A DNA stretch of 32,388 nt from Candidatus Kaiserbacteria bacterium. Lineage in GTDB: Bacteria > Patescibacteriota > Minisyncoccia > Phycocordibacterales > Phycocordibacteraceae. Below are positions 2,005 through 29,593 of this stretch, piece after piece. The notes below the pieces were generated by a model. It ran no database searches. It was not told where the DNA came from and worked only from the letters and a program-made list of their open reading frames with translations. Positions within the stretch are counted from its first letter, which is position 1, and every line of letters begins with the position of its first letter. The stretch is taken from positions 1 through 32,388 of the forward strand of contig JARIGN010000009.1 in NCBI GenBank assembly GCA_029288835.1, read 5' to 3'. A program made the translations under genes and the position numbers.

Positions 2005-2124
2005 AAAGCAACCCAGAAGTGTCCCTTCGAAAGGCACGGAATATTTTTCTGCTGAAAAATTTCCTCCTGCTCGGGCCGTCGCCCTGCGCAGAGGCCTTTC
2101 TCAAGGACACTTCTGGGTTGCTTT
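2005..2124 (+). repeat. Structured palindromic element, copy A: 31-bp outer arms (28/31 complementary) enclosing a core with two hairpins
   Basis: AAAGCAACCCAGAAGTGTCC...GAAAGGC pairs with GCCTTTC...GGACACTTCTGGGTTGCTTT; core ACGGAATATTTTTCTGCTGAAAAATTTCCTCCTGCTCGGGCCGTCGCCCTGCGCAGA shared with 6854-6970. Confidence 0.9.
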
Positions 2125-6179: not shown

Positions 6180-6845
6180 ATGGCACAAGAAAACACAAAC
6201 GAATCAACAGCAGTAGAGAATGCTCCAAAGAGCCGTGTTCCGCTCATGGTTGCCGCAGCGATCGTGCTCATTATTGGCGGCGGTATCGGCGCACTCGCGT
6301 ATCTCGGCGTCACCAACCAGCAGGTTTATATCGAAAAGTCCGCAGTGCAGGCTCCTCAGACAGCACTCGCCCCCACCACCGCAGGCACACTCATGAATGT
6401 GTATGTAAAGGTGGGCGATGTGCTTTTGCCTAATACGCCCGTGGCGCAGGTTGGCACGCAGCTCGTCACCTCAACGGCAGGCGGCCTCGTGATTCTCACT
6501 AACACTAACATCGGAAGCTTGGTGAATGCCGGCACGCCGGTAGTAACCACCATCGATCCAAAGCAGCTTCGCGTCGTGGGGCAGCTTGAGGAAGATAAGG
6601 GATTGGCGAATGTTGCCGTGGGTGACCAAGCAAAGTTTACGGTCGATGCATTTCCTGGTCAGACGTTTTATGGTGTCGTGAGTGAAGTGGCCCCAACCGC
6701 AGAAGCTTCTGATGTGGTCTTCCAGGTCTCCGACCAGCGACAAGAGCAAAACTTTAATGTATATGTTGCGTATGACCTTACGAAGTATCCACAACTGAAG
6801 AATGGGATGAGTGCGAAGATTTGGGTGTATCGAGGAAAGAGTTAA
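6180..6845 (+). CDS. short HlyD-like (EmrA-like) membrane fusion protein
   Basis: N-terminal TM; biotinyl/lipoyl-like TAGTLMNVYVKVGDVLLPNTPVAQV; barrel segment VAVGDQAKFTVDAFPGQTFYGVVSEVAP. Confidence 0.8.
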   Translation: MAQENTNESTAVENAPKSRVPLMVAAAIVLIIGGGIGALAYLGVTNQQVYIEKSAVQAPQTALAPTTAGTLMNVYVKVGDVLLPNTPVAQVGTQLVTSTAGGLVILTNTNIGSLVNAGTPVVTTIDPKQLRVVGQLEEDKGLANVAVGDQAKFTVDAFPGQTFYGVVSEVAPTAEASDVVFQVSDQRQEQNFNVYVAYDLTKYPQLKNGMSAKIWVYRGKS

Positions 6846-6853
6846 TATGCGAC

Positions 6854-6970
6854 AGTGCGTAGCGACACGGGTGATGAAAAGGACGGAATATTTTTCTGCT
6901 GAAAAATTTCCTCCTGCTCGCGCCGTCGCGCTGCGCAGAACCTTTTCTTACACCCGTGTCGCTACGCACT
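6854..6970 (+). repeat. Structured palindromic element, copy B: 20-bp perfect outer arms different from copy A, same core
   Basis: AGTGCGTAGCGACACGGGTG ... CACCCGTGTCGCTACGCACT; core ACGGAATATTTTTCTGCTGAAAAATTTCCTCCTGCTCGCGCCGTCGCGCTGCGCAGA. Confidence 0.9.
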
Positions 6971-6980
6971 ATTGATTACT

Positions 6981-8507
6981 ATGGCTACATCCACTGCTAC
7001 AATTCCAACTACTCAAGCGCCTGCGAAAGCAAAAGGTGATTCTTTGAAGTGGTGGGTGCTCGTGACGGTTATTATCGGCACGTTCCTTGGCCGTCTCGAC
7101 CAAACAATCGTTAACCTCGCGCTCCCGAACATCATCACTGACTTCCACATTACCGTCAGCCAGGCAGGGTGGATCGGTACGGCATACATCCTTGCAAACG
7201 CGGTCTTCGTACCTATCTGGGGAAAGCTCGGCGACACTATTGGGCGAAAGAAGGTGTACATTATCGGCTTTATTGGTTTCTTGATTGGCTCGGTGCTTGC
7301 CGGTCTGGCGTGGAATCTTCCTTCACTCATCGTTTTTCGTATTATCCAAGCTATTTCAGGATCTGCAGACTATCCAACGGCGATGGCCATTCTTACCGTG
7401 ACTTTCCCTAAGCAGCAGGATAGGTCGCAAGCGCTCGGTATTTGGTCTTCGGTATTCGGCGCCGCATCCGTCTTTGGTCCTCTGATTGGTGGCCCGCTCA
7501 TTGATACCTTTGGCTGGCGTTCGGTGTTCCTCGTGAATCTGCCGGTGGGAATCATCGGTACCTTCATGGCGCTCACCTTTGTGACGGAGTCTAAGCTTCC
7601 TGAGCGCGTCGTTAAATTTGACTGGTTTGGTGCAATCTCGCTGGGTGCGGCACTTGCAACGCTCGTGCTCGTACTTGACCAAGGCACGAGCTGGGGATGG
7701 CTTTCAACCTCAAGCATGCTCTGCTACCTTGGCACGCTCGTCTTTGGATTCATCTTCATCCTAATCGAGCAGCGCCATCCTGAGCCGATCGTTGACCTTA
7801 AATTCTTCCAGAATCCGGTCTTCGTGAATACGCTCACCAACAACTTTATCGTGTTCATGGGTCTTATGGGCAGTATTTTCCTCGTGCCGATTTTTGCGCA
7901 GACCTTCCTTGGCTACAGCGCGACCCAGACCGGCTACCTCTTCATTCCAATGGCCTTCGGTCTCATGGCGGCTGCACCATTTGGGGCTTCACTGGTAGGG
8001 AAGGTAAAGCCGGGAATCGTGATCGGCTTTTCTACGCTCGTTGCGGCATTCGGTCTCTATCTTTTCTCATTCCTTGATGTGCGCTCGACTGCTATCGATG
8101 TGATGATCCCGCTCGTCATCATGGCTGGAGGCCTCGGCTTTGGTATGGCGCAGCGTACGAACGCCGTCGCGCAGGCAGTGCCGCCGCATGAGATCGGCGT
8201 AGCGTCTTCAGTGCTTGCGCTCGTGCGCAACATTTCAGGTGCCTTTGGTATCGCACTCTTTGGTAGCTTGCTCGACTGGGCAGAAAAGCGAAACGTGCTG
8301 AATATTTCCTCTCTTAGTCATCTCTATGTGCACACTGCAGCGAATATGCAGACGTATACCACACTTATCATCTTGAAGGCACAGGTTGATGCCTACGGGC
8401 TTATCTATGAAATAGCGGCTGGTATTCTCGTGATCGGTGCACTTTTTGCATTCTTCATTAAGGTGCCAGAGCGAAAAATTGACCCTGAGCTCATGATGGC
8501 CGAATAA
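6981..8507 (+). CDS. MFS transporter, DHA2/EmrB-QacA type multidrug exporter
   Basis: many TM segments; LGRLDQTIVNLALPNI, WGKLGDTIGRKKVYIIG; start taken at ATG 6981 (ORF track start is TTG). Confidence 0.92.
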   Translation: MATSTATIPTTQAPAKAKGDSLKWWVLVTVIIGTFLGRLDQTIVNLALPNIITDFHITVSQAGWIGTAYILANAVFVPIWGKLGDTIGRKKVYIIGFIGFLIGSVLAGLAWNLPSLIVFRIIQAISGSADYPTAMAILTVTFPKQQDRSQALGIWSSVFGAASVFGPLIGGPLIDTFGWRSVFLVNLPVGIIGTFMALTFVTESKLPERVVKFDWFGAISLGAALATLVLVLDQGTSWGWLSTSSMLCYLGTLVFGFIFILIEQRHPEPIVDLKFFQNPVFVNTLTNNFIVFMGLMGSIFLVPIFAQTFLGYSATQTGYLFIPMAFGLMAAAPFGASLVGKVKPGIVIGFSTLVAAFGLYLFSFLDVRSTAIDVMIPLVIMAGGLGFGMAQRTNAVAQAVPPHEIGVASSVLALVRNISGAFGIALFGSLLDWAEKRNVLNISSLSHLYVHTAANMQTYTTLIILKAQVDAYGLIYEIAAGILVIGALFAFFIKVPERKIDPELMMAE

Positions 8508-19022: not shown

Positions 19023-19454
19023 ATGTCACCACCTACTAATAAAAATGTATTCCGGACTTATAAACCACTAGATCTCATTACGGGTAAACTCCTCCTATAT
19101 TTAGCCACAATAAGAGAAATTGAGGCGAATAATGTTGATAAGGGTATAATTGGATTTCTACCTAATCACAATTCTATCTACATTAATAGCTTTAAGATTA
19201 AGGATATTACCAGAAAGCACGGTCTCATTCCGTATGAAAATCTTATTTTGACTGCTAATAATCCTACTTTTTATGTAAAAGGGATGATTGAGAATAGAGA
19301 ATTTATGACACTCGCTAAAGATTTTGGTTCAACATGCTTTGTATTATCTACACGTAGATATGAAGAATTCTACGTGGTTACATTTTTTGAACCGGCATCA
19401 AAGAAATATCTGGAATCAATAAAGAAAAGGGGAGAAGTACTCTATATACTATAA
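19023..19454 (+). CDS. orphan hypothetical protein, AT-rich gene
   Basis: 143-aa ORF, SD-like AAGGTGAT just upstream of ATG, strong terminator overlapping its stop codon. Confidence 0.75.
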   Translation: MSPPTNKNVFRTYKPLDLITGKLLLYLATIREIEANNVDKGIIGFLPNHNSIYINSFKIKDITRKHGLIPYENLILTANNPTFYVKGMIENREFMTLAKDFGSTCFVLSTRRYEEFYVVTFFEPASKKYLESIKKRGEVLYIL

Positions 19455-19481
19455 AAGCTGCGATTTCTCGCAGCTTTTATA
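19450..19481. terminator. perfect bidirectional intrinsic terminator
   Basis: TATAAAAGCTGCGA-TTTC-TCGCAGCTTTTATA, 14-bp perfect stem; minus strand loop is GAAA. Confidence 0.88.
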
Positions 19482-19573
19482 ATATGGTGGAGCGCCATTT
19501 CCACAACCAGACGGTTTATTGAACCCGGGACAGCCGAGGCGCACCCTTACGGGTTTACTGTCTTCATATACCT
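19482..19573 (-). ncRNA. candidate small RNA (promoter to shared terminator, total 19450-19573)
   Basis: minus-strand TTGACG-16-TAGACT (19580-19607), hairpins GACAG..CTGTC enclosing ACCC-GTAA-GGGT, GTGGA..TCCAC, ending in the 19450-19481 terminator. Confidence 0.4.
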
Positions 19574-22037: not shown

Positions 22038-24089
22038 TTATACGCCGATTAGGACGGGGATCACCATCGGAGCCTTGTTGGTTTGCTGGAAGAGGTAGCC
22101 GGCCATGACGTCGGAGATTTGGTTCTTGACGTAGTCGAGGTCGACGGGATTCATGCCCTGGGTCGTGTCTTCCACGGTCTTTTTGATGAGAAGTCTCGCG
22201 GTGTTGAGAAGCTCCTGGGACTCACGCAGATAGATGAAGCCGCGGGAAATGATGTCCGGAGACTTGCGAAGCTTGCCGGTCTTTAGATTTACCGTCGCAA
22301 TGATGACGAACATACCATCCTTTGCGAGCATCTGGCGGTCGCGGATGACCACTTCCTGCATGTCGCCAATAGCGAAGCCGTCTACCATGAGCGGAGCCGC
22401 AGGCACTTTCTCCTTATGGATGTCGAGGCGCGCACCATCAACGATGTCGATCACCATGCCGTTATCGGCAAGGACAATTTCCTCGCGGGGTCGTCCTGCC
22501 TGCTCGACTGCTTTCGCGTGGCATGAGGTCATTGAATAATACCCATACGCAGGCATGAAGAACTTCGCCTTCACCTGCTGGTTGATCCATACGAGCTCGC
22601 CGGTGTTTCCGTGGCCGGTCGAGTGCACGTCGGAAGACTTATAGTGGATGAGCTTCACCTGGTTTCGGTACAGGTTGTCCTTAAGCTTCTGCACGGAGAC
22701 TTCGTTGCCTGGAATGACTGAAGAGGAAAGCACAATAGTGTCGCGCGGGGTGAGCACGATGTTCTTGTGCTGCTTCGTTGCGATGCGCATGAGCGCAGCA
22801 AACTCCTCGCCCTGGGCACCCGTTGCAAGGATGATCACCTTGTCGGGCGGGTAGTCCTGAATTTCTTGTGCGGAAATAATAGTGCCTTTTTCAATTTTCA
22901 TGAGACCGGTCTGCTGGCCAATTTCAATGTTGGTACGGAGTGAGCGGCCTTCCACCGCCACTTTTTTTCCATACTTTTCTGCAGCCTCGATAATGTGAAG
23001 CATACGGTCAAACTGTGAAGCGAACATACCAATGATGAGGCGCCCGCTCACCGTGCGGATGATTTCATCAAGCGTCTCGGTGACGCGGCGCTCCGGAATG
23101 GAGAAGCCGTCACGCTCTGCGTTCGTTGAGTCTGCGATGAAGATGAGGTTGTTCTGCTGGCCAATTTCGCCCCATTTCTTCTGCTCGTGCGGAAGCGGCA
23201 CGCCATTTTCATGGTCGAGCTTGAGGTCTCCGGTCGCCACGACGTTTCCATACTTGGTCTCGATAGAAATACCCATTGAGTCTGGAATGGAGTGGGTCAC
23301 CGGGAAGAAGTGTACCTTGCTCTGGCCGATGGTATGCGTGCTGCCCGGCTCCACGACGACGAGGTTTGGTGCTGGCATGTCAGGATATTCTTCCTGGCGC
23401 TTCTGGATCATCACCGCCGAAAGGTTTCGCGTATAAATTGGCGGATTGCCGAAGCGGTTCATGATAAACGGAATGGCACCGATGTGGTCCAAGTGGCCGT
23501 GCGTGATGAAGACAGCACGGACGCGGTCGGCATTCTGCTCGAGATATTTGGTGTTTGGCAGCAAGTAGTCGACGCCCGGCGCAGCTTCTTCAGAGACGAA
23601 CTGGAAGCCTGCGTCAAAGACAAAGATGTCGTCATGGGTTTCAACCGCAATCATGTTGCGACCCACTTCTTCCACGCCTCCAAGCGGTACGATGCGCACA
23701 ACGTTTTCTGCGGCGCGTTCAGGCAGGTAGTCAGCGGTGCGCTTCGCGGTTGGCGTTCCCGCTGGGCCGCGCCGCAGCGTTCGCTGGATCTGACGGCTAA
23801 CGCGGCCAGGACGGCCACCGGAGCTGCTACTTCGGGAACCACTTGAGCGTTCGCCGCTAGAGCGATGCTCGCCATTAGAGGAGCGATGCTCGCCAACAGG
23901 GGAGCGATGCTCGCCAGAAGGTGCGCGGCGGTCACCACTGCGCGCTGGTCCACGGCCAGTGCCGCGATTGTTAAAAGGACGCGCTGGACCATTGCCACGT
24001 CGAGGGTTTGAACTATAGGACCCGCCTTGCGTGGTGCCGCTGTTTGGTCGCGGCCCTGGTGCAGGAGCGGGAGCTGGTGCTGGATTCAT
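22038..24089 (-). CDS. rnj: ribonuclease J with N-terminal low-complexity Arg/Gly/Ser-rich extension
   Basis: VRIVPLGGVEEVGRNM, ITHGHLDHIGAIPF, TGDLKLDHENG, HSTGHGNTGELVW; extension PAPAPAPGPRPN...GEHRSPVGEHRSSNGEHRSS. Confidence 0.95.
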   Translation of the reverse strand: MNPAPAPAPAPGPRPNSGTTQGGSYSSNPRRGNGPARPFNNRGTGRGPARSGDRRAPSGEHRSPVGEHRSSNGEHRSSGERSSGSRSSSSGGRPGRVSRQIQRTLRRGPAGTPTAKRTADYLPERAAENVVRIVPLGGVEEVGRNMIAVETHDDIFVFDAGFQFVSEEAAPGVDYLLPNTKYLEQNADRVRAVFITHGHLDHIGAIPFIMNRFGNPPIYTRNLSAVMIQKRQEEYPDMPAPNLVVVEPGSTHTIGQSKVHFFPVTHSIPDSMGISIETKYGNVVATGDLKLDHENGVPLPHEQKKWGEIGQQNNLIFIADSTNAERDGFSIPERRVTETLDEIIRTVSGRLIIGMFASQFDRMLHIIEAAEKYGKKVAVEGRSLRTNIEIGQQTGLMKIEKGTIISAQEIQDYPPDKVIILATGAQGEEFAALMRIATKQHKNIVLTPRDTIVLSSSVIPGNEVSVQKLKDNLYRNQVKLIHYKSSDVHSTGHGNTGELVWINQQVKAKFFMPAYGYYSMTSCHAKAVEQAGRPREEIVLADNGMVIDIVDGARLDIHKEKVPAAPLMVDGFAIGDMQEVVIRDRQMLAKDGMFVIIATVNLKTGKLRKSPDIISRGFIYLRESQELLNTARLLIKKTVEDTTQGMNPVDLDYVKNQISDVMAGYLFQQTNKAPMVIPVLIGV
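23861..23923 (-). repeat. three tandem 21-bp repeats encoding GEHRSx2 in RNase J extension
   Basis: AGCGATGCTCGCC recurs at 23861, 23882, 23903 (21-bp period). Confidence 0.85.
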
Positions 24090-29517: not shown

Positions 29518-29540
29518 AATCCCTATTCCATAATTAAAAA

Positions 29541-29568
29541 AAGCGGCGAGTCCTAGGATTCGCCGCTT
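29541..29568. terminator. terminator between convergent groEL and small membrane protein gene
   Basis: AAGCGGCGAGTCCTAGGATTCGCCGCTT; minus-strand T-tract TTTTTTT. Confidence 0.8.
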
Positions 29569-29593
29569 GTCTTATGAAGGACCAGGGATTAGA

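Follow-up and report, generated by a model that had tools for sequence, protein, structure and literature searches.

Results

Two palindromes with a common core and unrelated arms

The window analysed here is the whole 32,388-nt stretch of contig JARIGN010000009.1 from Candidatus Kaiserbacteria bacterium (source genome, G000). Four inverted-repeat pairs were detected in the window using an inverted-repeat finder, and two of them are the elements described in this study, copy A (2005–2035 paired with 2094–2124) and copy B (6843–6873 paired with 6951–6981). The genes on either side and the parts of each copy are as follows:

1281–1997, + strand: DsbA-like thioredoxin gene, upstream of copy A (Thioredoxin_4 and DSBA matches)
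2005–2024, + strand: copy A left outer arm, AAAGCAACCCAGAAGTGTCC (inverted-repeat finder)
2029–2035, + strand: copy A inner stem, 5′ strand, GAAAGGC (predicted fold)
2036–2092, + strand: copy A conserved core (covariance-model match, 85.5 bits; covariation)
2038–2064, + strand: copy A core hairpin 1, GGAA-T-ATTTTTC-TGCT-GAAAAAT-TTCC, with one-base bulge T2042 (predicted fold, covariation)
2067–2091, + strand: copy A core hairpin 2, CTGC-TC-GGGC-CGTC-GCCC-TGC-GCAG (predicted fold, covariation)
2094–2100, + strand: copy A inner stem, 3′ strand, GCCTTTC (predicted fold)
2105–2124, + strand: copy A right outer arm, GGACACTTCTGGGTTGCTTT (inverted-repeat finder)
2168–2878, + strand: dienelactone-hydrolase gene, downstream of copy A (DLH match)
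6180–6845, + strand: HlyD-type membrane-fusion gene, upstream of copy B
6854–6873, + strand: copy B left outer arm, AGTGCGTAGCGACACGGGTG (inverted-repeat finder)
6876–6882, + strand: copy B inner stem, 5′ strand, GAAAAGG (predicted fold)
6883–6939, + strand: copy B conserved core (covariance-model match, 85.1 bits)
6941–6947, + strand: copy B inner stem, 3′ strand, CCTTTTC (predicted fold)
6951–6970, + strand: copy B right outer arm, CACCCGTGTCGCTACGCACT (inverted-repeat finder)
6972–8507, + strand: MFS transporter gene, downstream of copy B

The initial annotation of this locus had described a shared core, outer arms that are self-paired within each copy and unrelated between the two, and a fold that ends in two hairpins, and all of these features were recovered. 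Copy A (2005–2124) and copy B (6854–6970) share a 73-nt inner block with 90% identity, and a 57-nt core is common to both. Within each copy, the outermost 20 bp of the two arms are perfect complements (2005–2024 to 2105–2124 in copy A and 6854–6873 to 6951–6970 in copy B), and the outer arms of copy A have no sequence relation to those of copy B. Fold prediction for both copies gave a long stem, followed by a small internal loop, a 7-bp GAAAGGC or GAAAAGG stem and two hairpins. A third copy was found in the source genome on contig C16 (13001–13110, L003; E = 1e-10), with AT-rich arms GTGGTGAATATATTTAA/TTTAAACATATTCATCAC that differ from those of A and B and with core hairpin 1 enlarged by an extra hairpin inside it. 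This third copy, together with own-arm pairing in 106 distinct copies, indicated that the pattern seen in A and B is not a chance case. In addition, the window contains two near-perfect terminator-like palindromes in which 18–20-bp arms enclose loops of 4 and 0 nt (19446–19485 and 29535–29574), and a 21-nt unit, GAGCGATGCTCGCCA..., tandemly repeated three times (23860–23937).

A covarying core in a patchily distributed family

Among 89 distinct cores, standard pairing was found in 94.6% of pair cells. Cells changed on both sides numbered 329, compared with 102 in shuffles, two-sided changes occurred at 18 of the 20 core pairs, and the covariation signal was lost in a control in which the partner was slid. 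Sequence conservation in the core is confined to the loops, the bulged T, the internal loop of hairpin 2 and a few pairs, with covariation elsewhere; the conserved parts are the bulged T and TGCT loop in hairpin 1, and the internal loop and CGTC loop in hairpin 2. The CCTCCT motif, which had been pointed out as anti-SD-like in both copies, is not conserved across the family, since other copies read CCTGCT, CCTCGC, GCTCTG or GCTGGG in those columns.

An initial DNA search located the core in 29 of 59 relatives. A covariance model trained on 14 cores then recovered the element in 60 of the 93 genomes of the source genus, with 1 to 52 copies each, and these many copies with variable yet complementary arms argued for a new element family. 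In an even sample across the phylum, the same model detected the element in 14 of 294 genomes, patchily distributed over several orders and classes and usually in multiple copies. Moreover, a scan of 85,488 species genomes (GTDB) for the two-hairpin core pattern gave 53 matches, nearly all of them in named Patescibacteria lineages (where named: Kaiser-, Nomura-, Adler-, Uhr-, Harrison-, Doudna-, Taylor-, Nealson-, Giovannoni-, Azambacteria and other Patescibacteria) and none in Rickettsia records. One 3.4-kb contig labelled Bacteroidetes (L254) carries the core within a sugar-phosphate mutase-like frame, and is probably a misbinned Patescibacteria contig. A phage or plasmid origin of the element was rejected, as searches of IMG/VR, phages and plasmids for the core returned zero matches.

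Arms paired within a copy and unlike between copies

The element consists of the core centred in an inverted repeat of about 20–60 bp per arm, and the arm sequence is copy-specific. Among 106 distinct copies, the median pairing score was 18 for a copy's own arms and 6 for arms taken from different copies, and a score of at least 12 was reached by 84% of own-arm pairs versus 5% of cross-copy pairs. The likeness of arms between copies (0.40) equalled that of shuffled sequence (0.40), and even where cores were at least 88% identical it rose only to 0.47 versus 0.40. The proposal that only pairing is kept in the arms therefore holds family-wide.

A burst family in G090 and G082 is set apart by its arms. 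Its ends, CTAGAACCCATTTCAAAAC, recur and its arms are conserved, indicating that one version multiplied, and these arms also show two-sided changes. In a separate comparison, a third copy of the arm was sought near 84 elements, with no excess over control. Arms copied from elsewhere in the genome were likewise rejected as a source, because the search yielded only borderline 16–19-nt matches within coding genes.

The element moves as a unit that includes its arms

Filled and empty sites were compared among the sister species G082, G089 and G090 (88–92% identical) and between G014 and G029 (98.6% identical). Comparison with an orthologous element-free region gave a clean insertion boundary: the G090 site at C6:7854 (L103), relative to the uninterrupted G082 site (L225), holds a 153-nt insert that includes both arms and adjoins CTAG. 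Presence or absence of the element was further observed at many orthologous sites. At three of four shared orthologous sites, the whole palindrome is inverted between sister species (L107/L190, L113/L193/L062 and L118/L211), and at orthologous sites the arms change in complementary fashion. As to target-site duplication, CTAG adjoins many ends, and one clean site is flanked by CTAG at its left and CCG at its right. A small palindrome, TCCTAAGATGACATCTTAGGA, adjoins the right arm of two different G090 copies, L114 and L118.

Across 12 sites and 16 filled/empty comparisons, of which most clean cases come from the single burst family with conserved arms, the empty loci contained no arm beyond chance matches of 6–10 nt. 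Site B is also empty in ten relatives, where no more than about 20 nt separate the HlyD stop codon from the start of the MFS gene and no palindrome intervenes. As the unit enters clean sites whole, these findings indicated that it is mobile together with its arms, and that over time the arms drift or are replaced as long as pairing is kept.

The initial annotation had offered a mobile element that rebuilds its arms from the target. Mobility was borne out by the empty sites and the inversions, whereas arm rebuilding as a rule is unsupported, since neither arms nor palindrome are present at empty sites. Formation of new arms out of the target DNA whenever the element inserts, for instance when one flank is copied through snap-back or a template switch (X-core-rc(X)), is accordingly an unlikely general explanation: the empty allele lacked the arm in all 16 comparisons, including one with 98–99% identical flanks (L188 vs L213), no third arm copy stood above control, and the arms of the burst family are constant. 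Such copying would nevertheless account for a few loci. Core relatives beside tRNA genes (L025, L035 and L038) have the tRNA 3′ end in direct and inverted form around the core and, with this second tRNA 3′ end, resemble N-core-rc(N)-N, and the left arm in prmC spans the conserved TEQL codons. The tRNA 3′-end copies and the prmC arm overlap make template-switch extension of an arm into its flanks possible in some cases.

Transposition of the core into the centre of existing palindromes, such as intrinsic terminators, in the manner of IS1272, would make the arms those of the host and would explain why they are unrelated between copies. Several observations point that way: at site A, the dsbA gene of relatives is followed by perfect-palindrome terminators; coreless palindromes occur in prmC at the core-bearing place; and at two orthologous sites different cores occupy similar inner arms. 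However, no palindrome is present at the empty sites (site B in ten relatives and 12 other sites), the L103 unit of G090 came in with its arms, and arm ends show no T-run excess, which leaves this origin quite improbable.

Gene context and a possible folding strand

Intergenic copies showed no orientation bias relative to their flanking genes (co-directional 11:11, convergent 15, divergent 7), and T-runs after the right arm were as frequent as in controls (5 vs 5); an intrinsic terminator was rejected on this absence of T-run excess. In about one in seven copies (15 of 101) an open reading frame continues through the element, and the host frames are prmC, dnaE, tsaD and those of a sugar-phosphate mutase-like and a tRNA-dihydrouridine-synthase-like protein, with prmC identified by an NCBIfam model and the other names by motif recognition. 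Palindromes with or without cores have landed repeatedly in the stretch of PrmC that links ETEWW to LDLCAGSG (L015, L034, L055, L072, L080, L094, L095, L096 and L296), and similar recurrent loops were noted in dnaE (L049, L188, L239 and L271) and tsaD (L023, L249 and L277).

Arm mismatches were counted in 62 non-redundant copies. On the strand on which A and B are described, A.C mismatches outnumbered G.T (58 vs 24), and copies with an A.C excess outnumbered the opposite (28 vs 6; sign test, p = 2e-4). An A.C mismatch on this strand is G.T on the complementary strand, and the excess therefore suggests folding of the complementary strand, in the form of single-stranded DNA or RNA, although the asymmetry could have a mutational cause (a strand-biased process) instead of a structural one. 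The complementary strand is the coding strand in 13 of the 15 in-frame copies. Combined with the balanced orientation of the intergenic copies, the mismatch asymmetry leads us to prefer a strand-specific single-stranded DNA, as would fit an HUH-type enzyme.

A cis-acting structured RNA (attenuator, processing site or terminator) copied around the genome, a role also put forward in the initial annotation, would be in keeping with the strong core covariation and with the position of A and B between co-directional genes, but is highly improbable given the balanced neighbour orientation, the inversion of the core in sister species, the copies within prmC, dnaE and tsaD frames, the lower frequency of G.T than of A.C pairs on the described strand, the absent T-run excess and an Rfam search that gave no match above the gathering score.

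Candidate enzymes and related palindromes

Among candidates for the mobilising enzyme, a single-strand-specific HUH (Y1) nuclease would be the most natural. Of the 93 genus genomes, 60 carry PF01797 (Y1, RAYT-type) genes, which are absent from the source genome. Co-occurrence of element and Y1 gene across the 93 genomes was weak (43/17/17/16; Fisher p = 0.07; Spearman 0.23), and no core was found beside the Y1 gene at 30 Y1 loci; the Y1 transposase was therefore rejected as an obvious partner. No autonomous long element with burst-family ends was found in G090 or G082, which are incomplete genomes in which absence is not proof.

Y1 genes have short palindromes of their own alongside, such as AAAGTYGGACATC-n-GATGTCCRACTTT and ATACAAGGT-tcc-ACCTTGTAT, some with long extra arms. 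In this genus, the palindromes flanking Y1 genes at L293–L300 and other loci are perfect and short-looped; their outer arms are variable, reaching 33 bp in L298, whereas the centre is conserved and is of the GGACATC-n-GATGTCC or ACCTTGTA type.

Other cores of comparable layout were also observed. At L217 (G029:C57) and L222 (G082:C13), which are orthologous to sites with the A/B core in sister genomes, a longer, different core, ACTCTCGGAGGCG...CGCCGAGAGTGAGCGCGTCCCGC, is enclosed by arms of its own that are perfect and variable, and represents a second family of the same design. A third core, GTCTGGCCGAGCGTAGCGAAGGGTCCCGAGGAC, lies between complementary arms within prmC at L098 (G004), L075 (G007) and L078 (G011), the last of which resembles a decayed version.

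Discussion

Copies A and B belong to a family of small mobile palindromes that is new to our knowledge and whose known members lie almost solely in Patescibacteria. In the open-licence literature, no palindromic or miniature inverted-repeat elements of this kind were found for Patescibacteria, Parcubacteria or the Candidate Phyla Radiation. In our view, both are probably copies of a mobile DNA element of this phylum that is palindromic and non-autonomous, similar to MITEs, REPs and RPEs. The core would be recognised by an enzyme acting in trans, probably as a single-stranded DNA hairpin, and the arms would need just to pair in order to extrude and present the core. What keeps the arms paired is probably selection on folding, intrastrand template switching from one arm to the other (quasi-palindrome correction), or both. 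With function constraining the core and pairing alone constraining the arms, old or separate lineages would have arms that look unrelated around cores that look recent. The unlikeness of the arms of A and B can thus be explained without a special arm-building mechanism, with a functional core that changes slowly and arms that are free except for pairing.

REP/REPIN sequences are mobilised by TnpAREP/RAYT (PMC3116915, PMC3733652 and PMC6006769). The present element is likewise a multi-copy intergenic palindrome with two hairpins, one of which has a conserved bulge. However, the GTAG/CGTC foot at the hairpin base is missing, CGTC being solely the loop of hairpin 2, and the Patescibacteria element has no RAYT neighbour. 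The nearest published pattern is that of REP dimers inside larger palindromes with a consensus, in Anabaena variabilis and Halothiobacillus neapolitanus (PMC3733652); the arms described here differ in having no consensus.

The element shares with MITEs a short non-autonomous unit, terminal inverted repeats, clean insertion (153 nt, L103 vs L225) and bursts (G090/G082). Bacterial MITEs (ERIC, Correia/NEMIS and others; review, PMC10969869) are short, non-autonomous, bounded by terminal inverted repeats and defined by conserved ends. In contrast, the ends here vary by copy and the centre is conserved, with conserved ends solely inside the G090/G082 burst family. IS1272-type targeting consists of insertion into pre-existing stem-loops, and differs in that no stem-loop is present at the empty sites here.

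Palindromic elements of Rickettsia (RPE; Ogata et al. 2000 and 2002, reviewed in PMC10969869) are scattered palindromes of ~100–150 nt that lie in frame in conserved genes and are tolerated by the protein. Scattered palindromes and in-frame insertion in conserved genes were also seen here (15 of 101 copies), in a host of another phylum (Patescibacteria instead of Rickettsia). We know of no RPE family with a conserved core alone and free arms. Overall, the element works like a MITE, REPIN or RPE, although it lacks the REP foot and RAYT neighbour and the conserved ends of a classical MITE.

A more far-reaching version of the mobile-element reading is possible, and we put it forward tentatively as more doubtful than the reading itself. 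The element would be defined by structure over sequence: one strand of the short core would be read by a Patescibacteria enzyme as single-stranded DNA, the arms could have any sequence that pairs and would be rewritten in concert by template switching between them, and the units would double as in-frame protein inserts at recurrent loops of conserved genes.

The family inverts textbook transposable-element logic, with a conserved centre, free ends and, in addition, in-frame entry into coding genes. Patescibacteria genomes are tiny, and as many as 52 copies are held in a genome of ~600 kb. The family lends itself to testing whether selection or template-switch correction maintains perfect inverted repeats. 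Moreover, the family model can serve to annotate many intergenic palindromes that have lacked an explanation, as well as unusual protein inserts, in Patescibacteria genomes.
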